Assembly (NCBI GenBank): GCA_018701395.1
Contig: JABIWU010000086.1
Location: forward strand, 1 to 37,973
Reading direction: 5' to 3'
DNA: 37,973 nucleotides
Origin: Phycisphaerae bacterium
GTDB taxonomy: Bacteria > Planctomycetota > Phycisphaerae > Phycisphaerales > SM1A02
Of this stretch, positions 7,363 through 18,952 are shown piece after piece. Under the pieces are notes generated by a model. It saw nothing but the letters and a program-made list of their open reading frames with translations, had not been told where the DNA came from and searched no databases. Each line of letters opens with the position of its first letter. Position 1 is the stretch's first letter. The translations under genes were made by a program, and so were the position numbers.

Positions 7363-8643
7363 ATGGGAACAAGCGGATCACATCGACGTAAACACCGGCA
7401 ACAAAGTCACAACGAATCCCACGCTCAAGGGACGATTACACCGATTCTAGAGGGCCATCCGCTCGTTCCATCGGGTAACGCAGAGTGGATAGATACCGAT
7501 GAAAAATTTCTTGAACTTTGCGATTCCTTAAAAAACAGCGGAATCTTCGCTTACGACACAGAATTTATTGGAGAAGATTCATATTACGCGTTCACTTGTT
7601 TAATTCAAGTTGCTACTACGCAACGAGTTGCGCTCATTGATCCATTTAAAGTAAAAGACCTTTCACCGCTGTACGCACTCATTGCCGACCCAACTATCAC
7701 AACCCTTTTACATTCCGGCTCCCAAGACCTTGAACCCGTTGCTCGGCTGTTTGGCAAAGCGCCAGCAGGAATTTTCGATACCCAACTTGCAGCAGGATTT
7801 GTTGGATTTCCATGGCCAATCTCTCTTACCAAACTGATAGAGTCAATACTTCACCATGACGTCGGGGGGCACTTTACTTTCTCGCAATGGGATGCTCGTC
7901 CGCTTTCAGAGCGACAAAGATTCTATGCAGCTGACGACGTTCGATATCTGATTGCACTGCATGAATTCCTCACTACTAAATTGAAGGAATTAAACAGAAT
8001 ATCGTGGGCAGAAAAAGAATTTGCAAAATTCACAACCATCGAAAACTTTAAATTTGAACTCGTCAATGTTGTAAAAAGAATTTGCAAAAATAAATCTCCA
8101 CGTAAAAAAGAAATTCAACGCGTTCAAGCCCTTGCACAATTACGCGAAAACATTGCTATTGAATTAGACCTTCCAACAAGAGCAGTCATCCCAAACGAAT
8201 GCGTGCTTGCTCTAGCAAAAAAACCTGTTGAAACTGTCAGCCAACTTGCATCCATTAAGGGTTTTCCTAGAAATATGGCGAACCGATTCGGAGATGAAAT
8301 ACTAAAAGCAATTTTAGATGCACCATCCTTAGAACCAACGCAATTGCGAAAACCACAAGCAATTGAAAAGGAAGCTGAAACAAGGCAAGAACTTGACGGT
8401 ATTTGGTCGCTTTTTGGGGCCTGGTGCGTTGGCAAACAACTTTCAACTGGTCTTGTTACAAATAGACCAACCTTCACCGATTGGTTTCTAGCTCTACGCG
8501 AAGGAAACGAACTAAGCGACTCTCCACTTCAACAGGGATGGAGATGTGAAGCGGTAAAAGAATTTGCTGACATGATTTCAGGGAACGGCACAATTTCATT
8601 TTCATACAATGAAACCCTACATGCAGAAAATGTAACACCATGA
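7363..8643 (+). CDS. rnd: RNase D-family 3'-5' exoribonuclease with HRDC domain
   Basis: The protein (426 residues) has the DEDDy exonuclease motifs of RNase D, which trims 3' ends of tRNA precursors and other RNAs. Exo I is FAYDTEF (Asp65, Glu67), Exo II is HSGSQDLE (Asp122), and Exo III is FYAADDVRYL (Tyr188, Asp192). After the nuclease domain (~40-205) comes an HRDC-like helical region (~245-312, RKKEIQRVQALAQLREN... to ...NRFGDEILKAI), which in this family binds nucleic acid. The first ~35 residues are basic, His/Arg-rich and probably disordered. A further ~90-residue C-terminal part is less clear. The last bases overlap the next start (ATGA), so translation is coupled to the PLP enzyme, with no obvious functional link. 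The start ATG is supported by the -10 element nine bases before it. Confidence 0.9.
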   Translation: MGTSGSHRRKHRQQSHNESHAQGTITPILEGHPLVPSGNAEWIDTDEKFLELCDSLKNSGIFAYDTEFIGEDSYYAFTCLIQVATTQRVALIDPFKVKDLSPLYALIADPTITTLLHSGSQDLEPVARLFGKAPAGIFDTQLAAGFVGFPWPISLTKLIESILHHDVGGHFTFSQWDARPLSERQRFYAADDVRYLIALHEFLTTKLKELNRISWAEKEFAKFTTIENFKFELVNVVKRICKNKSPRKKEIQRVQALAQLRENIAIELDLPTRAVIPNECVLALAKKPVETVSQLASIKGFPRNMANRFGDEILKAILDAPSLEPTQLRKPQAIEKEAETRQELDGIWSLFGAWCVGKQLSTGLVTNRPTFTDWFLALREGNELSDSPLQQGWRCEAVKEFADMISGNGTISFSYNETLHAENVTP

Positions 8644-9857
8644 CAAAAGCATTCGATCCACACCAAGCAATGGCAGATGCTCGGCATGAATTTGGCGAAC
8701 ACGGTGGTGTCAATATGTCCATCGAAGCAAGCACAACATTCACAGTCATGACGCCCGATTTAATGCCGGAAATTTTTGCAGGGCAACTTGGACCGAACGA
8801 AGGTGGTTGTTATCTCTATGGCAGGCACTTCAACCCAACCGTTTTTGTTCTAGGCAGAATGGTCGCAGCAATGGAAGGTGCAGAAGCTGGTTACGGAACT
8901 GCGAGCGGCTTGTCAGCAATTGCTGCAGTCATTATGCAAAAGTGCGGTGGTGGTGGCAAAGTAGTTTCTTCAAACACCCTATACGGTGGCACATATGCAT
9001 TATTCGAAAAATATTTACCTAAAAACTGCAATATAGAAACCTCCTTTATAGATATAAAGGATCTTGAAGCAGTTGAAAAAGCAATGCAAAATGGTGCGTC
9101 AGTTCTTTACACAGAATCGCTTTCTAATCCAACCCTACTTACTGCCGACATTTCAGCACTTGCTGAAATTGCACACAAATACGATGCCATGCTTGTTGTT
9201 GACAACACATTTACACCTTTGATTTTCAGTCCAATACAAGAGGGCGCAGATGTAGTAATCCACAGCGCAACTAAATTTTTAAGCGGTGCATCTGATGTTA
9301 TTGCGGGAGTAATTTGTTGTAGCAAATCGTTTATCGAAGAGCTAATGGATTTGCACCTTGGTTCATTAATGTTACTTGGTCCGACAATGGATCCTATTGT
9401 TGCATTCCGCCTTTCACTTCGACTCCCTCATCTCGCCGCTCGAATGAAGGAACACTCAAGCCGTGCGCTCTTTATGGCAAAGAAATTACGGGAATTCGGC
9501 CAAGATGTCGTCTACCCAGGACTTCCAGAACATCCAGACCATGCGCTGTTTAACCGAATCCGAAATAAAGAGTATGGCTTTGGCGGACTCTTTACAATTG
9601 ATATGAAAACTTCAGAACGTGCCGAACGATTGATGAACCTTCTCCAGAATGAACAACAATTTGGTTACATCGCAGTCAGTTTGGGTTATTTTGACACATT
9701 AATGTCGTGCCCTAGCGCGTCAACATCGAGTGAAATGAGTGAAGAAGCACAAGATACAGCAGGAATTTCCCCTGGCTTAGTACGATTCTCAATTGGGATC
9801 ACCGGCTCAATCGAAGAGCGTTGGAATCAAATGAAAGAAGCAATTGAGCAGTGCTAG
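8640..9857 (+). CDS. Cys/Met metabolism PLP-dependent enzyme, methionine gamma-lyase-like
   Basis: A 405-residue fold-type I PLP enzyme of the Cys/Met family. Family marks are YGRHFNPT near residue 60, GTASGLSAIAAV (~86-97), SNTLYGGTYALF (~111-122), VVDNTFTPL (~187-194) and the Schiff-base lysine in HSATKFLSG (Lys212). The C-terminal LVRFSIGITGSIEE is also typical. Such enzymes cleave or replace the gamma-substituent of methionine, cystathionine or O-acyl-homoserine. The branch with GGVNMSIEASTTF and YLYGRHFNPT is usually annotated as methionine gamma-lyase or O-acetylhomoserine sulfhydrylase, and the exact reaction cannot be settled from sequence. It is clearly different from the cystathionine gamma-lyase at 13894. 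The start overlaps the RNase D stop by four bases. Confidence 0.88.
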   Translation: MTKAFDPHQAMADARHEFGEHGGVNMSIEASTTFTVMTPDLMPEIFAGQLGPNEGGCYLYGRHFNPTVFVLGRMVAAMEGAEAGYGTASGLSAIAAVIMQKCGGGGKVVSSNTLYGGTYALFEKYLPKNCNIETSFIDIKDLEAVEKAMQNGASVLYTESLSNPTLLTADISALAEIAHKYDAMLVVDNTFTPLIFSPIQEGADVVIHSATKFLSGASDVIAGVICCSKSFIEELMDLHLGSLMLLGPTMDPIVAFRLSLRLPHLAARMKEHSSRALFMAKKLREFGQDVVYPGLPEHPDHALFNRIRNKEYGFGGLFTIDMKTSERAERLMNLLQNEQQFGYIAVSLGYFDTLMSCPSASTSSEMSEEAQDTAGISPGLVRFSIGITGSIEERWNQMKEAIEQC

Positions 9858-9896: not shown

Positions 9897-10919
9897 ATGG
9901 CACGAGAACGAATAATTTCACCCGATGAACAATCAGTTGACAACGAATCAACTGCACGTGAAACTTCAACGCATTCCATTCGACCGACTACTTTAGATCA
10001 ATATCTCGGACAAGCGGAATTGCGTGAGCGTTTAAGTGTTGCACTTGAAGCTGCAAAGGACCGCGATGATCCAATGGAACACGTACTTTTGTACGGTCCT
10101 CCAGGGCTTGGAAAAACAACACTCGCACATGTCATCGCAAATGAACTTGGTACGAGAGCTTGGGTCACATCTGGCCCAGCGCTCACAAAGGGAAGCGACC
10201 TTGTCGGAACGCTTACAAGGATGGAACCTGGGGACGTTTTATTCATAGATGAAATCCATCGCCTTCCCGCTTCCGTTGAAGAATATATTTACCCTGCAAT
10301 GGAAGATTATAAAATTGATTTTACACTCGACTCAGGAATGCACGCACGAGTTGTAACGTATGCGCTTCAACCGTTCACACTCATTGGCGCAACTACACGA
10401 GCGGGTTTGCTTACAGGTGCGCTTCGAAGTCGATTCGGCATAGTGCACAATATTCGTTTTTACGAAACAGATGAACTCACTTCTATTCTCAAACAAGCAG
10501 TACCTAAACTTGGCATGGATGCAGTCGATGAACAATCACTTTATTGCATCGCTTCAAGGAGTCGCGGGACCCCGCGAATTGCCCTTCGGCTTCTGCGAAG
10601 AGTGCGCGACTTTTCTCAAGTTCGTTGTGACCATCGATTCGATCAATCCGTCGTCAACGAAGCATTAAAACTTGAGGGTATAGATGACGCTGGACTCGAC
10701 ACACTTGATCGAACCTATTTAGAGACACTTTCAACCGTCTACGAAGGCGGTCCTGCCGGCGTGGAAGCGATTGCTGCAACGATGGGCGAAGACGCTGGGA
10801 CACTTCAGGATGTTGTTGAGCCATATTTGTTACAGGCAGGCTATTTGTCTAGGACCCGGCAAGGGCGAAAAATCACTGAATTAGGCATAAAGAGGCTCGA
10901 ACAGCAAATAAAAGGTTAG
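9897..10919 (+). CDS. ruvB: Holliday junction branch-migration helicase RuvB
   Basis: The AAA+ motor that drives branch migration with RuvA during recombinational repair. The 340-residue sequence is typical: RPTTLDQYLGQAELRERL, Walker A GPPGLGKTT (67-75), Walker B LFIDEIHRL (~115-123), sensor 1 IGATTRAG and the arginine-finger segment RSRFG, followed by the winged-helix end (GPAGVEAIAATMGED... then YLLQAGYLSRTRQGR). It stands 39 bases after the PLP enzyme and probably has its own promoter: TGC-TACGCT ends ten bases before ATG and no ribosome site is present. ruvA and ruvC are not in the window. Confidence 0.98.
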   Translation: MARERIISPDEQSVDNESTARETSTHSIRPTTLDQYLGQAELRERLSVALEAAKDRDDPMEHVLLYGPPGLGKTTLAHVIANELGTRAWVTSGPALTKGSDLVGTLTRMEPGDVLFIDEIHRLPASVEEYIYPAMEDYKIDFTLDSGMHARVVTYALQPFTLIGATTRAGLLTGALRSRFGIVHNIRFYETDELTSILKQAVPKLGMDAVDEQSLYCIASRSRGTPRIALRLLRRVRDFSQVRCDHRFDQSVVNEALKLEGIDDAGLDTLDRTYLETLSTVYEGGPAGVEAIAATMGEDAGTLQDVVEPYLLQAGYLSRTRQGRKITELGIKRLEQQIKG

Positions 10920-10952: not shown

Positions 10953-10990
10953 GTCATATTTCCCCTTGGCATGTACTAGCTTTTACTCAA

Positions 10991-10999
10991 TGATATAAT
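10991..10999 (+). promoter_or_regulatory. Strong extended -10 promoter of the prepilin-like gene
   Basis: TGA-TATAAT matches the extended -10 consensus exactly. The start site would be near 11006, giving a leader of about 175 bases before ATG 11182. A TTGGCA at 10966-10971 is 22 bases away, too far for a normal -35. Confidence 0.7.
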
Positions 11000-11006
11000 T
11001 GGTTGG

Positions 11007-11168
11007 ACAGGCATGTTGCCTGTGGTATTCCGTAGATTTCGACCTCATGTCTTCCAATCTACGAACTTAGGGTAGACTATGCTTTATTACTACCCACATT
11101 ATTGAAGGATTAATGGCCTTATTTTGAAACCATTGGTCTGGCCGAATCGTATGTGTGATACACACATA
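11007..11168 (+). ncRNA. Structured 5' leader with successive hairpins
   Basis: Hairpins in order: ACAGGCA/TGCCTGT (11007-11023, loop of three); CGTAGATT/AATCTACG (11031-11063); GGGTAG/CTACCC (11070-11095); AATGG/CCATT (11112-11134, weaker); TATGTGTG/CACACATA (11150-11168, perfect 8 bp with a three-base loop). The last hairpin ends beside the ribosome site AAAGGAAAA. The arrangement resembles a cis-regulatory or mRNA-stabilising leader. It matches no riboswitch I know, including the c-di-GMP class I pattern. Confidence 0.55.
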
Positions 11169-11181
11169 AAGGAAAATTTGT

Positions 11182-12411
11182 ATGAAAAACAAGCAGCATC
11201 CGAAACATGCAATGACGGGCTTCACAATTGTTGAATTACTCGTTGTGATTTCTATCATTGCACTACTAGTTGGTATTTTGGTACCAGCCGTTCAAAAGGC
11301 TCGAGACTCAGCCAAAACAACACAATCAAAAAGTAACAGTCACCAAGTCATGATTGCATTGTCAAACTATGCGACTGATCACAACGACCGTAACTTTAGT
11401 ACAGCACCAGACGACCTATCCTCGGGTGTTCGAAAAGGTATGGATATTACTGATGCAATCCAAGACGCTGAGGGTCCAGACCCAATGGGTATCGAACTCG
11501 GCGAACACGAAGCTGGTGGCGCTGCATATGTTTACTACATTGCAATGTTCGGTAACGGTGGCAACGAATCTGGCGGTATCGCTCCATACTGTTTCGCAAC
11601 TGGCAAAACTACAAGTAGCACTGGCAAAATTGGATACGGCGTATGGCGTTATCCTAACTCAGGTCAAGTAGCTGGTTACATGGGTGGTATGCCACTTCAC
11701 TCAGCTTACTTCGCACCTAAAGATGTTGTTCCACTTCGAGCTCTTGAGGGATGTTCAGAAATCCCTGCAACATACTGCCCTTCATCCGGCATGGCTGCAG
11801 GTCACGGTTCTCTCACTGATGCAGACGTCGTTTGGAATTCCAACATGTTGCAAGCGCCTTCAAGCTACTGCATCTCCCCTGCAATGATGTACTCACCAGC
11901 TGTGTACCAATGGGACCCACGTCCAGCACAAGAAGGCCATGCCCCTCTACAGCCAACAGATCCAATGGATCTTCCTCGTGGCTTCAAACCGCCATCAACA
12001 GACCAAGCTAAGTATCCTGGCCATAAAACATGGCTCATGGAACATAATTGGCTACAAAACGTTGACAACAACGAATGTGGTGTTAACTGGGAATTTGGCG
12101 GTTGGTTCCTCGATGGCGATGGAACTTGGGATGGTTGCGAACCTGAACACTTCAATGGAAGTCGCCACTCTGAACCAGTTACTGTAATGGTTGATGGTAG
12201 TACAACTATCTTCAACGTAGCAGACGCAGCTGGCGATGATGAGCGAATAGCAAGTCAATATTGGTACAACAACCAAGGTCTTTGGATTAAGGATATGTTT
12301 GATGGCCAAAATGGCTACTACGTTGACTACCGAACTGACTGGGTTGAATGGTCAGGTCACACACATACTAAAGATGGCATTCGTGGTCGAGACCGAATTA
12401 ACGCTCAGTAA
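11182..12411 (+). CDS. Prepilin-type protein of the planctomycete secreted-pseudopilin kind
   Basis: 409 residues with a type IV prepilin N terminus: a basic leader ending at Gly13, then [20 protein letters not shown] with Glu at +5 and a 20-residue hydrophobic helix. Prepilin peptidase would cleave after Gly13. The rest (~45-409) is a large, Gly/Trp/Tyr-rich, acidic exported domain with several Cys, carrying [13 protein letters not shown] near 335, close to the H-X9-DG signature of planctomycete pseudopilin-like proteins but with eight residues between His and Asp-Gly. It stands alone between ruvB and the cystathionine operon, with its own extended -10 promoter, structured leader, good ribosome site and strong terminator, all pointing to an abundant product. 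Exact role (pilus, secretion system or surface protein) is unknown. Confidence 0.85.
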
Positions 12412-12439: not shown

Positions 12440-12477
12440 ACAGCAGGTCGCTTCTTTGATGCGACCTGCTGTTTTTT
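12440..12477 (+). terminator. Intrinsic terminator of the prepilin-like gene
   Basis: A perfect 12-bp stem (ACAGCAGGTCGC, 12440-12451, with 12461-12472) is followed by a T run. It begins 29 bases after the stop codon. Confidence 0.92.
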
Positions 12478-12490
12478 GTATCTGATTCAG

Positions 12491-12496
12491 TACAAT
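12491..12496 (+). promoter_or_regulatory. -10 element abutting the cystathionine beta-synthase start
   Basis: TACAAT lies exactly six bases before ATG 12503, so position +1 would be the A of ATG. The terminator of the previous gene ends only 25 bases upstream of the ATG, leaving little space for a conventional leader. Confidence 0.5.
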
Positions 12497-12502
12497 GCAC
12501 TG

Positions 12503-13897
12503 ATGCCACAAACTACACAAAAATCGCTGATTGTTGCTGAATCCGTTTTGGATCTCGTTGGCGACACCCCAATGTTAAAAACACATTCGATGGACACAAA
12601 CAATTGTGATTTGTTCATCAAATTAGAATCGCAGAATCCAGGGCAATCTATTAAAGACCGAATTGCTCTGACCATGATTGACAAAGCAGAACGTGACGGC
12701 GATTTACGAAAAGGTATTCGCATTATCGAAGCGACCGCTGGAAATACTGGAATCGCCCTCGCCCTTGTTGCCTCTCAAAAAGGATACGAAATTACCGTTG
12801 TTGTTCCTGACAAAATGAGTGAGGGAAAAATTGCACACCTTCGAGCAATGGGAGCAAAAGTCGTAATGGCTCGCAGTGATGTTGAAAAAGGACACCCTGA
12901 TTACTATCAAGATGTTGCCAAAAAACTCGCCGATGACAACGGGTGGTTCTTTGTAAATCAATTTTCAAACGATGCAAACATTGAAGCGCACTATACAACT
13001 ACCGGACCAGAAATTTGGGAACAAATGGACGGCAAAATTGATGCGGTAATCATAGGCGTTGGCTCCGGTGGAACTATTACCGGTGTTGGGAGATTCTTAA
13101 AAGAACAAAATCCAGATATTGAAATTGTTCTTGCAGATCCAGAAGGTTCCATTCTCTCGCCGCTCGTAAACGAAGGCAAAGAAGTTCAAGCGGGTTCATG
13201 GTTGGTTGAGGGTATCGGAGAAGATTTCATCCCATCTATTACCGACTTAGAATTAGTCTCAAAAGCATACTGGATAAGCGACAAAGACTCATTCAACACT
13301 GCACGAGAATTACTAAAGAAGGAAGGCATATTAGCTGGGTCTTCTACTGGCACACTTGTAGCTGCTGCAATTTGTTGGGCAAAAGAGCAAACCGAACCTA
13401 AAAGAATTGTTACATTTGCTTGCGACCATGGTTCTAAATACCTTTCAAAAATGTTCAATGATTATTGGATGCTTGACCAGGGTTTTGTTGACAGAAAACA
13501 GCATGGCGACTTGCGTGATTTAATTGCGAGGCGACATGAAACACGGGAAGACTTCACTTTAAAACCATCGCTACCAGTCATTCAAGCAATTAAAAATATG
13601 CGCTTGTACGACATCAGCCAAATGGCTGTACTTGAAAATGGAGTAGTTACCGGAATCCTTGATGAGAGCGACATCTTGCTTGCAGTGACAGGTGACGCGG
13701 ATAATTTCAAGAAACCGGTACGTGATTTCATGACAACAAAACTTACAACACTTTCTGCTGATTCCAACATCGACCAACTCATCCCACTATTTGCAAATGA
13801 TATGGTTGCAATTGTCGTAGATTCAGACAAAAAATATCTTGGCCTCATCACGAAAATTGATCTTATAAATCATTTACGAAAGCAGTTACCACGTTGA
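12503..13897 (+). CDS. cbs: Cystathionine beta-synthase with C-terminal CBS domain pair
   Basis: PLP enzyme of fold type II that condenses serine (or O-acetylserine) with homocysteine to cystathionine, the first step of reverse transsulfuration. The N terminus has LVGDTPMLKT, the PLP lysine in SIKDRIALTMID (Lys51), EATAGNTGIALALVA for the substrate carboxylate, and the phosphate-binding GVGSGGTITGVGRFLKE. Residues ~340-464 form two CBS modules (MAVLENGVVTGILDESDILL and DMVAIVVDSDKKYLGLITKIDLINHL), which in many homologues bind adenosyl compounds. The 464-residue length fits the full enzyme; no haem-binding extension is seen. ATG 12503 is preferred because the longer TTG frame at 12476 begins inside the upstream terminator. 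It overlaps the cystathionine gamma-lyase gene by four bases. Confidence 0.93.
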   Translation: MPQTTQKSLIVAESVLDLVGDTPMLKTHSMDTNNCDLFIKLESQNPGQSIKDRIALTMIDKAERDGDLRKGIRIIEATAGNTGIALALVASQKGYEITVVVPDKMSEGKIAHLRAMGAKVVMARSDVEKGHPDYYQDVAKKLADDNGWFFVNQFSNDANIEAHYTTTGPEIWEQMDGKIDAVIIGVGSGGTITGVGRFLKEQNPDIEIVLADPEGSILSPLVNEGKEVQAGSWLVEGIGEDFIPSITDLELVSKAYWISDKDSFNTARELLKKEGILAGSSTGTLVAAAICWAKEQTEPKRIVTFACDHGSKYLSKMFNDYWMLDQGFVDRKQHGDLRDLIARRHETREDFTLKPSLPVIQAIKNMRLYDISQMAVLENGVVTGILDESDILLAVTGDADNFKKPVRDFMTTKLTTLSADSNIDQLIPLFANDMVAIVVDSDKKYLGLITKIDLINHLRKQLPR

Positions 13898-15087
13898 ACA
13901 AAGAAACAAAATTCGATTCGCAAGTTGTTCATGCAGGACAATCGCATGAACCAGTTACCGGTGCGGTAATGCCTCCGATATTTCTTTCCTCAACGTACGC
14001 CCAGGAATCTCCTGGCGTGCATAAAGGGTTTGAATACACACGAAGCCACAACCCAACAAGGTACGCTCTTGAAAGATGTGTCGCACGGCTTGAAGGAAGC
14101 ACACTTACAGAAGAACAAGATGTTTCATTTGGTGGGTTTGCCTTTTCAAGCGGGATGGCGGCCGTTAACACTGTCTTGGATTTGCTCGATTGCGGCGACC
14201 ACGTTGTTGCAATGGATGATTTGTACGGTGGCACGCATCGCCTATTTTGCAAAGTGAAGCAACGCACATCGGGCCTCAACTTTACCTTTACCGATTTAAC
14301 AAACACCAAAGCGCTTGCAAAGGCAATTACCGAAAAAACAAAACTTATTTGGATTGAAACACCAACCAATCCAATGCTAAAACTCGTCGACTTGGAAGCC
14401 GTTGTAGAGATTGCAAAAAACCGAGATATTATTCTTGCTTGTGACAATACATTTGCAACTCCTGCACTACAACATCCTTTAAAAATCGGTTTTGATATTG
14501 TTATGCACTCCGCGACTAAATATCTCGGTGGGCACAGCGATGTTGTGTCAGGAATGCTCGCAACTGGCGACGCTACTCTTGCTGAGAGAATCCGTTTCGT
14601 TCACAACTCTGCTGGTCCAATTTTAAGTCCATTCGATTCATACCTTGTACTTCGTGGTATCAAAACTCTTGGCTTGCGAATGCGTCGGCATTGCCAAAGT
14701 GCTTTGCGTATTGCAACTTGGTTGGAAAGCAGAGATGAAGTTGAAACAGTGTACTACCCTGCTCTGCCATCACATCCTCAACACCAAACGGCTCTCAAAC
14801 AAATGTTCCTCGACGGCCATGTTGCAGGCGGTGGAATGATTACTTGCGTTCTCAAGGGCGGGCTTGATGCTTCAAGATCATTCTTAGAAAAACTACAAAT
14901 TTTTGCGCTTGCCGAATCACTTGGAGGCGTGGAATCACTCGTTGAACATCCTGCAATCATGACACATGCTTCAGTCCCACCAGAAGTTCGCACTGAACTC
15001 GGTATTGCCGATGGCCTTGTTCGCTTGAGCGTTGGAATTGAAGATTGTGATGACCTTCTAAAAGACCTTGAACAAGCTCTGGGGTAA
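13894..15087 (+). CDS. Cystathionine gamma-lyase / cystathionine gamma-synthase family enzyme
   Basis: A 397-residue Cys/Met PLP enzyme. Marks include FEYTRSHNPTRYALERCVARLEG (~46-68), FSSGMAAVNTVLDLL, DDLYGGTHRLF (~108-118), CDNTFATPALQHPL (~183-196), HSATKYLGGHSDVVSG with Schiff-base Lys209, and SLGGVESLVEHPAIMTHASVP near the C terminus. Next to cystathionine beta-synthase it most likely acts as the lyase, splitting cystathionine to cysteine, 2-oxobutyrate and ammonia, though the synthase reaction cannot be excluded by sequence. The start is TTG 13894, overlapping the cbs stop as TTGA, with no other start at the expected N terminus. This suggests translational coupling and a lower yield than the upstream gene. 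pgi follows after six bases. Confidence 0.92.
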   Translation: MNKETKFDSQVVHAGQSHEPVTGAVMPPIFLSSTYAQESPGVHKGFEYTRSHNPTRYALERCVARLEGSTLTEEQDVSFGGFAFSSGMAAVNTVLDLLDCGDHVVAMDDLYGGTHRLFCKVKQRTSGLNFTFTDLTNTKALAKAITEKTKLIWIETPTNPMLKLVDLEAVVEIAKNRDIILACDNTFATPALQHPLKIGFDIVMHSATKYLGGHSDVVSGMLATGDATLAERIRFVHNSAGPILSPFDSYLVLRGIKTLGLRMRRHCQSALRIATWLESRDEVETVYYPALPSHPQHQTALKQMFLDGHVAGGGMITCVLKGGLDASRSFLEKLQIFALAESLGGVESLVEHPAIMTHASVPPEVRTELGIADGLVRLSVGIEDCDDLLKDLEQALG

Positions 15088-18015: not shown

Positions 18016-18952
18016 GATAGTAAAGACCATTGTACAGTCCAAAATATTCCTGCTACCCCTCCTTTTAATCTTTTCAGTTGGCTGCTCAGAACGGACTGAA
18101 ACTCTACGACACGAGCCAAAGCCAACTCTTCAGCAGAAATCTGCGATTGTTGCTCTTGTTGGCAAAAATACAATTAGGCGAAATGACCTCTGGCCAGCGT
18201 TAATTGAGTTAGCGGGCGAAGAAGCGATTGAAGATGCGATACATCACCTTCTACTTACCGAGGAACTCAAAAAAGTCTCTATTGCAATTACCGCTAGCGA
18301 CATAGAAAATGAAAAAAAATTACTTTGGGGAGCCGCGCCTTCGGTAGATAAAATTGTATTTGAAGAAATGCTACATGCAAAAGGGCTAGGCACTTTCAGA
18401 CAAAAGCGACTCCTTTGGAGGAATGCTGCACTACGAAAATTGATTGCTAGTGAAGTTAATGTAACCCCTCAAGCCATCGCGAGAATGTATGAAATTGTGT
18501 ACGGACCAACTTTTCCAGCGAAAATTATAGTTTGCACTTCTCTAGATGAATCGAACGACGTATATGCAAAATTGAATGATGGCGCAAATTTCTCAACCGT
18601 AGCAATTAAGTATTCCATTGACCCAAGTGCTCCTCAAGGTGGTGTTGTCAATCCAATTTCACCAGCTGATCCAATTTGGCCAGCACCAATTCGTGAAGCA
18701 ATTATAACTATAGAGAGCAACGCTTTTTCTAAACCAATTTTTATTGGCGACAGATGGGTGATTGTACTTCGTTCAGGTGAAGCAACTCCCTACGCGTATG
18801 CATTTGAAGAAGTTGAGAAAGAAATAATCACCCTTGCAACTCTTGCGCAAGAAAGATTTTTGATGAAGGAAAAATTAGATAGTTTACGAGAACAAATTTC
18901 ACCAAACTATTTTGACAAAGATCTACAACGAGTTTTAGGTTCTGAATTTTAA
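18014..18952 (+). CDS. Parvulin-type (PpiC/SurA-like) peptidyl-prolyl isomerase lipoprotein
   Basis: 312 residues from ATG 18014. The N terminus is a lipoprotein signal: MIVKTIVQSK, a hydrophobic core, and the lipobox FSVGC with lipidated Cys24. A helical N-terminal domain (~50-165) resembles SurA/PrsA chaperones. Residues ~175-265 fit a parvulin domain: FPAKIIVCTSLDESNDVYAKLNDGANFSTVAIKYSIDPSAPQGGVVNPISPADPIWPAPIREAI, with the family patterns F..A..YS.D.....GG and the closing GDRWVIVLRSGE. It would assist folding of exported or outer-membrane proteins in the periplasm. Ahead of the LPS-export permeases (convergent) this fits an envelope context. The longer frame from 17984 is less likely because it would place extra residues before the signal. 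The stop overlaps the convergent permease gene by four bases. Confidence 0.8.
   Translation: MIVKTIVQSKIFLLPLLLIFSVGCSERTETLRHEPKPTLQQKSAIVALVGKNTIRRNDLWPALIELAGEEAIEDAIHHLLLTEELKKVSIAITASDIENEKKLLWGAAPSVDKIVFEEMLHAKGLGTFRQKRLLWRNAALRKLIASEVNVTPQAIARMYEIVYGPTFPAKIIVCTSLDESNDVYAKLNDGANFSTVAIKYSIDPSAPQGGVVNPISPADPIWPAPIREAIITIESNAFSKPIFIGDRWVIVLRSGEATPYAYAFEEVEKEIITLATLAQERFLMKEKLDSLREQISPNYFDKDLQRVLGSEF

Follow-up and report, generated by a model that had tools for sequence, protein, structure and literature searches.

The window analyzed here, a stretch of 37,973 nt, is contig C59 of the Phycisphaerae bacterium genome G000 (1.94 Mb). It contains a leader region between ruvB, which ends at 10919, and a gene for a prepilin-like protein (Table 1). 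Transsulfuration-like genes lie on either side of ruvB and the prepilin-like gene, at 8640–9857, 12476–13897, and 13894–15087; from their translations, two look like Cys/Met PLP-type enzymes and one like a cystathionine beta-synthase. The gene at 12476 begins 65 nt past the end of the prepilin-like gene. A first-pass annotation had described up to five successive hairpins in the leader, and all five are present in place, the last (HP5) directly adjoining the Shine–Dalgarno sequence AAGGA, which is followed by the ATG. The stem lengths that it listed (7, 8, 6, 5, and 8 bp) hold for HP1, HP2, HP3, and HP5, but HP4 is longer than 5 bp and contains internal loops.

Table 1. Features of the leader and the gene downstream of it (positions within the window).
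Feature	Position	Strand	Details
−35-like element TTGGCA	10966..10971	+	TTGGCA or TTGGCG in 13/13 genus leaders
−10-like element AATGAT	10989..10994	+	6 nt ahead of the first pseudoknot base
Pseudoknot 5′ strand GGTTGG, predicted RNA start	11001..11006	+	Complementary to 11039–11044; covaries
HP1	11007..11023	+	7 bp; compensatory changes in 6/6 modelled pairs
HP2	11031..11063	+	8 bp; modelled arms 11031–11037 / 11057–11063
Pseudoknot 3′ strand TCGACC, in HP2 loop	11039..11044	+	Pairs with 11001–11006
Conserved loop core CATGTCT	11046..11052	+	(Near-)invariant columns in alignments A3, A4, and A5
HP3 (GGGTAG / CTACCC)	11070..11095	+	6 bp; comparison confined to the genus
HP4	~11107..11139	+	Internal loops; from the predicted fold
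HP5	11150..11168	+	8 bp; ends directly before the Shine–Dalgarno sequence
Shine–Dalgarno sequence AAGGA	11169..11173	+	Unpaired in the predicted fold
Prepilin-like protein, 409 aa	11182..12411	+	ATG at 11182; NCBIfam N-terminal pilin models below their cut-offs

Comparison within the genus covered 13 genomes, including that of the window. In all 13 leaders, the −35-like TTGGCA or TTGGCG is followed by 17 nt, a −10-like hexamer, 6 nt, and the first base of the pseudoknot described below. The first-pass annotation had placed an extended −10 at TATAAT (10994–10999); this hexamer lies 22 bases from TTGGCA and is replaced in relatives by TACACT, TATGGT, and others, so that the assignment was dropped. 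Its estimate of ~175 untranslated bases becomes ~181 nt if the RNA starts at ~11001, as the conserved promoter predicts. Across all genera, leaders were scanned for TTG, 15–18 nt, a hexamer with A in the second and T in the sixth place, and 5–7 nt to the pseudoknot strand, the offset of which was fixed per genus from the pairing analysis. A −35/−10 pair with the −10 element at this distance was found in 47 of the 58 leaders and was absent from 11, and the same arrangement occurred in 3.8% of shuffled upstream sequences. The promoter spacing thus predicts that transcription begins with the pairing strand of the pseudoknot. A sigma-54 promoter at CTTGGCA was considered and rejected, as its second element is not kept (by eye).

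Folding of the leader from the window alone gave a z score of −2.23, with 3 of 200 shuffles equally stable. Because this is only moderately better than chance, the leader was compared with its relatives, compensatory pair counts covering HP1, HP2, HP3, and the pseudoknot. An alignment of 12 genus leaders, padded by hand, showed compensatory changes in 15 of 24 pairs overall (HP1 6/6, HP2 5/7, and HP3 2/5), and HP3 was paired in 100% of cells across the 12 rows. In a 14-row MAFFT alignment, which was not fitted by hand, 14 of 19 pairs showed such changes (HP1 6/6 and HP2 5/7 among them), and in a 23-row alignment across genera the count was 13 of 14 for HP1 and HP2 (6/6 and 7/8). The covariation score was reached by 0/500 shuffles in each of the three alignments and the number of further pair types by 148/500, 60/500, and 3/500, respectively, the shuffles taking no account of the relatedness of the rows. 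Sliding the pairing partner by 1–3 columns lowered pairing from ~90% to 27–45% in the 14- and 23-row alignments. Three genus members (G001, G004, and G011) diverge in sequence in the 3′ half of the leader, HP4 included.

The first-pass annotation had made its proposal depend on conservation and covariation among relatives, and both were found, with the leader in 13/13 genus genomes and compensatory changes in HP1–HP3. A fold arising by chance within an ordinarily conserved upstream region would account for the modest z score of −2.23, for shuffle statistics that ignore relatedness, and for pair-type counts not above shuffles in the two smaller alignments. It is very improbable, given the 14/19 compensatory pairs with a score that none of the 500 shuffles reached; moreover, the 15 top matches (at least 25.3 bits) of covariance model R2 outside its own rows all lie before prepilin-like or other exported-looking genes, save one at a contig end. 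From its covariation, the region is a conserved structured leader RNA, the base pairs of which are kept by compensatory change.

GGTTGG at the predicted RNA start is complementary to TCGACC in the HP2 loop, beside the conserved core CAYGUCU. At the DNA level this core reads CAYGTCT in most rows, and CATTTCT or CATCTCT in some copies. An upstream ORF starting within it was rejected, as the ATG is not kept (CACGTCT, CATTTCT, CATCTCT). Taken alone, the genus gives the pseudoknot moderate support: 2/6 pairs show compensatory changes (236/500 shuffles score as high), 84.7% of cells are paired (18/500), and the covariation score is reached by 8/500. In the 14-row alignment, 3/6 pairs are compensatory and 91.7% of cells are paired. 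Across genera the two strands change jointly, to GGCCAGAG/CTCTGGCC (g60), TGACTGAT/ATCAGTCG (g47), TGCCGA/TCGGCA (g51), and GCGGTCGAG/CTCGGCCGT (g48). The pairing of 5′ strand and HP2 loop scored at least 5.5 in 56 of 59 rows, that of G012 at another place; G118 scored 5.0, and G002 and G016 failed. The mean score was 6.64 with a strand's own partner, compared with 4.87 for swaps between genera and 4.37 for shuffled partners. Swapped partners also reached 5.5 in 1038 of 2922 cases, because GG-rich strands are common to many genera. Comparative evidence shows that HP1, HP2, and the pairing between the leader start (6–9 bases) and the HP2 loop together form a pseudoknot of the H type, the first loop of which holds a hairpin and the third the conserved CAYGUCU. 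The description of the leader as a row of hairpins was correct for the hairpins, but had missed the 5′ pseudoknot, the conserved loop, and the spread of the RNA across genera and unrelated exported-looking proteins.

In the leaders of G000, G009, and G005, ViennaRNA, which cannot draw pseudoknots, gives the 5′ strand a partner past HP4 instead. In these predicted folds the strand (11001–11006 in the window) pairs at about GGCCGA (11140–11145 in the window), a complement that by eye is not in every genus member. This pairing is a possible alternative state in the modelled folds. By eye, the HP2 loop strand lacks a 5′ partner at two loci, L085 (G016, loop strand TCGGCC) and L145 (G183), and a complement, GGCCGA or GGTCGA, lies downstream (GGCCGA in L085); from these sequences, a change of pseudoknot partner is possible.

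At the place of HP5, a hairpin above the cut-off and ending no more than 7 nt from the Shine–Dalgarno sequence was found in 40 of 53 leaders, where dinucleotide shuffles gave an expectation of ~15. The excess lies in the other genera (35/40 vs 13.0 expected), the genus of the window contributing 5/13 vs 1.9 expected; leader copies of one genus are not independent in these counts. As background, 36 of 719 genes in the genome of the window passed, each belonging to the 219 that have a recognized Shine–Dalgarno sequence. A hairpin module before the Shine–Dalgarno sequence is therefore clear in the other genera, and only suggestive in the genus of the window.

The distribution of the RNA was examined with three covariance models, R1 (without G003), R2 (the genus and G016), and R3 (23 diverse rows, picked from R2 matches with the downstream genes already known). 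R1 matched the leader in 13 of 181 genomes of the family, all in the genus (E 0.1), including G003, in which a contig break parts the leader from its gene. The genus-specific feature that this suggested was corrected by R2 and R3 matches in other genera. Among the 37 R2 matches examined in the 181 family genomes, 17 lay before prepilin-like genes, 8 before genes for other exported-looking proteins, and 1 at a contig end, and 11, all at or below 24.7 bits, were judged to be chance; outside the genus, the examined set takes in the listed matches above 20.5 bits.

R3 found 55 places in 42/181 family genomes and 11/45 genera (E 0.02). Prepilin-like genes follow at 44 of them, including G010, where a run of N comes soon after the start codon, and G092 and G093, where the gene is cut by the contig end. 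Other exported-looking proteins follow at 9, and 2 lie at contig ends (G003 and G095). Outside the rows of R3 the corresponding numbers are 25, 6, and 1 (32 of the 55), and R3 contains a row of the same genus for every one of these places outside g21 and g45. A single copy was present in 35 of the 42 genomes, and others had up to four. R3 missed the genus members G004 and G011, which both R1 and R2 found. Two more genera probably carry the RNA, judging by weaker matches: g13 (G024, E 0.0246, before a beta-propeller protein) and g8 (G183, a partial R2 match before a prepilin-like gene).

The nine other proteins were called exported by eye, from signal-peptide-like N-termini. Pfam searches of three of them identified two beta-propeller proteins and one right-handed beta-helix protein, which also matched dockerin below threshold; a fourth such protein, that of G024, was likewise a beta-propeller. 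In a sample of 392 genomes of the phylum, R3 gave 2 matches at E 0.01 (G000 and G090), both inside the family. In a sample of 400 genomes of the order, 45 had a match at E 0.05, 3 of them outside the family (G055, G251, and G341). These three were judged false, since none lies before a prepilin-like gene and that of G341 lies within long open frames. Searches over more than 40 genomes apply stricter filters, so weak copies are missed there. The position of the RNA is consistent, upstream of prepilin-like or exported-looking genes at 53/53 readable places among the 55. By these matches it is an undescribed RNA family, a leader of exported-protein genes in one family of the Phycisphaerales.

At locus L006 (G010:C190), two leader copies and two gene starts are separated by a run of N, which is either a tandem duplication of the leader–gene unit or a scaffolding artefact. 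At L019 (G031:C126), in another genus, a prepilin-like gene follows ruvB after a shorter intergenic stretch that gave no RNA match.

The prepilin-like protein had no Pfam family at E 0.001, and its predicted structure had a mean pLDDT of 30.5. Orthologues of its gene are present in 12/12 other genomes of the genus. According to PMC10632474, no paralogue group of Planctopirus limnophila is larger than that of the DUF1559 proteins (68); the prepilin-like protein gave no Pfam match that would place it in DUF1559. Codon usage was analyzed over 1.07 Mb (~55%) of the genome, with the ribosomal-protein ORFs of one operon as the reference. In this one genome the leader-bearing gene ranked 4/807 by codon log-odds and 8/807 by CAI, and EF-Tu, recognized by motif, ranked 2/807 by log-odds. 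The nine other prepilin-like ORFs found in the scanned part ranked 18 and 315–807. The one at rank 18 (L108; G000:C64, − strand, ORF at 18389 of the reverse complement) had no RNA copy reported by R1, R2, or R3. With its ribosomal-protein-like codon usage, the gene looks very highly expressed, in line with the highly expressed surface-protein message that the first-pass annotation had named as one possibility.

The association of the leader with exported proteins could also mean that it serves as an address, marking their messages for the membrane or the export machinery. The 53/53 readable places would fit, the rows of R3 having been partly picked with knowledge of the genes. We consider such an address improbable, because the RNA has a single match in G000 where the prepilin-like protein has 14 further ones (E 0.01), and because protein abundance explains the same pattern.

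No terminator-like site was found on the + strand between 10800 and 12600, which led us to reject transcription attenuation, and the Shine–Dalgarno sequence is open in the predicted fold of the window, with no masking seen. By default, therefore, the leader looks to be ON. The predicted 5′ end buried in the knot, the open Shine–Dalgarno sequence, the lack of a visible terminator, and the very high expression suggested by codon usage together favor the reading that the leader is a 5′-end shield, which would make the messages for very abundant exported proteins durable and efficiently translated (probability about 0.43). The covariation of HP1, HP2, HP3, and the pseudoknot, the promoter spacing in 47/58 leaders, and the hairpin before the Shine–Dalgarno sequence in 40/53 also count in its favor. 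Burial of the 5′ end of the transcript in the pseudoknot would slow 5′-end-dependent decay, and the hairpin before the Shine–Dalgarno sequence would stop upstream structure from reaching the start site. Motif scanning of 55% of the genome revealed RNase Y-like and RNase III-like ORFs, and no candidate for RNase J, RppH, or CsrA.

Several observations run against a shield. The 5′ strand fails to pair in G002 and G016, pairs elsewhere in G012, and has the alternative ViennaRNA pairing in three leaders. The hairpin before the Shine–Dalgarno sequence passes the cut-off in only 5/13 genus leaders, which slightly lowered our confidence in the shield, and 36/219 Shine–Dalgarno genes pass the same cut-off. 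Further, the conserved CAYGUCU is not obviously needed for a plain shield, which suggests tertiary contacts or a partner. The first-pass annotation had offered a riboswitch, a protein-binding leader, or a stabilizer of the message; the data lean towards the stabilizer and do not settle the choice.

Sensing of a ligand or a protein is kept alive by the conserved CAYGUCU and by the occurrence of one leader before unrelated genes. As a riboswitch, the pseudoknot would be an aptamer for a small molecule that sets the translation or stability of the exported-protein message. In its H-type fold and conserved third loop the pseudoknot resembles known compact aptamers, up to four copies occur per genome before unrelated genes, and the alternative pairing of the 5′ strand in G000, G009, and G005 could be a second state. 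We nevertheless regard a riboswitch as rather unlikely, since the window has neither a terminator-like site on the + strand nor a masked Shine–Dalgarno sequence in its predicted fold, the alternative pairing is absent by eye from some genus members, the targets have export in common and not a pathway, and no Rfam riboswitch matches. A family-specific RNA-binding protein might instead read the knot and CAYGUCU and co-control surface-protein messages. This would suit the conserved loop inside a covarying scaffold, the several unrelated target types within one genome, and the confinement of the RNA to one bacterial family in the samples searched. It too is unlikely, 35 of the 42 genomes with a match having one copy. 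Jointly, the riboswitch and the protein-binding leader are a serious prospect at somewhat less than even odds. More narrowly, we hold it tentatively possible that this is a new leader class, known so far from one planctomycete family, whose pseudoknot, formed by the bases that open the RNA, uses CAYGUCU to sense a ligand or a dedicated protein and so co-controls exported proteins of the prepilin-like, beta-helix, and beta-propeller types.

The RNA family is well supported by covariation and absent from Rfam 15 as searched, and its structure is precise and testable. Because the pseudoknot uses the predicted first bases of the transcript, it would tie together transcription start, mRNA stability, and the output of surface proteins. 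If the leader is a stabilizer, it could serve strong expression in planctomycetes.

Searches of Rfam 15 at the gathering threshold matched neither the window nor any of 14 loci that carry other copies, in agreement with the first-pass remark that the leader fits no familiar riboswitch class. A relaxed search of the leader returned two snoRNA matches on the minus strand (E 2.4), and across 6 loci it gave a single sRNA match (E 0.051), which lies in L180 but not within the leader. An open-licence full-text literature search, narrow in scope, found no description of this RNA in work on related topics, and no such leader turned up in the literature searched on planctomycetes. A CsrA-binding leader was rejected, as GGA motifs are not conserved (by eye). 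HDV-like ribozymes have a nested double pseudoknot with the strand order P1-P2-P3-P1′-P4-P2′. A ribozyme of this type was rejected, since the strand order here is a-HP1-b-a′-b′ and the promoter can explain the 5′ end.

The c-di-GMP riboswitches occur before pilin and surface genes in other bacteria, a setting like that of the present leader, and the genome of the window has two GGDEF matches; the GEMM-I and c-di-GMP-II covariance models matched nothing, either at the gathering score or when the leader was searched with relaxed settings. The preQ1-I/II, SAM-II, and fluoride riboswitches contain a small H-type pseudoknot in the leader with a conserved third loop. The present RNA is like them in this, but carries a further hairpin in loop 1, matches no Rfam family, shows no apparent expression platform, and precedes genes that are not metabolic. 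Viral exonuclease-resistant RNAs (xrRNAs) stop 5′ to 3′ decay by means of a knot at their 5′ end; the leader could by analogy act alike, although fold and origin differ. Protection of mRNA by 5′ UTRs and stem-loops, such as that of ompA, is described in PMC7509114. What the leader would share with the ompA 5′ UTR stabilizer of E. coli is a structure at the 5′ end of the message of an abundant surface protein. The ompA structure is a plain stem-loop, whereas the predicted 5′ end here is held in a pseudoknot with a conserved loop, as part of a putative stabilizer.
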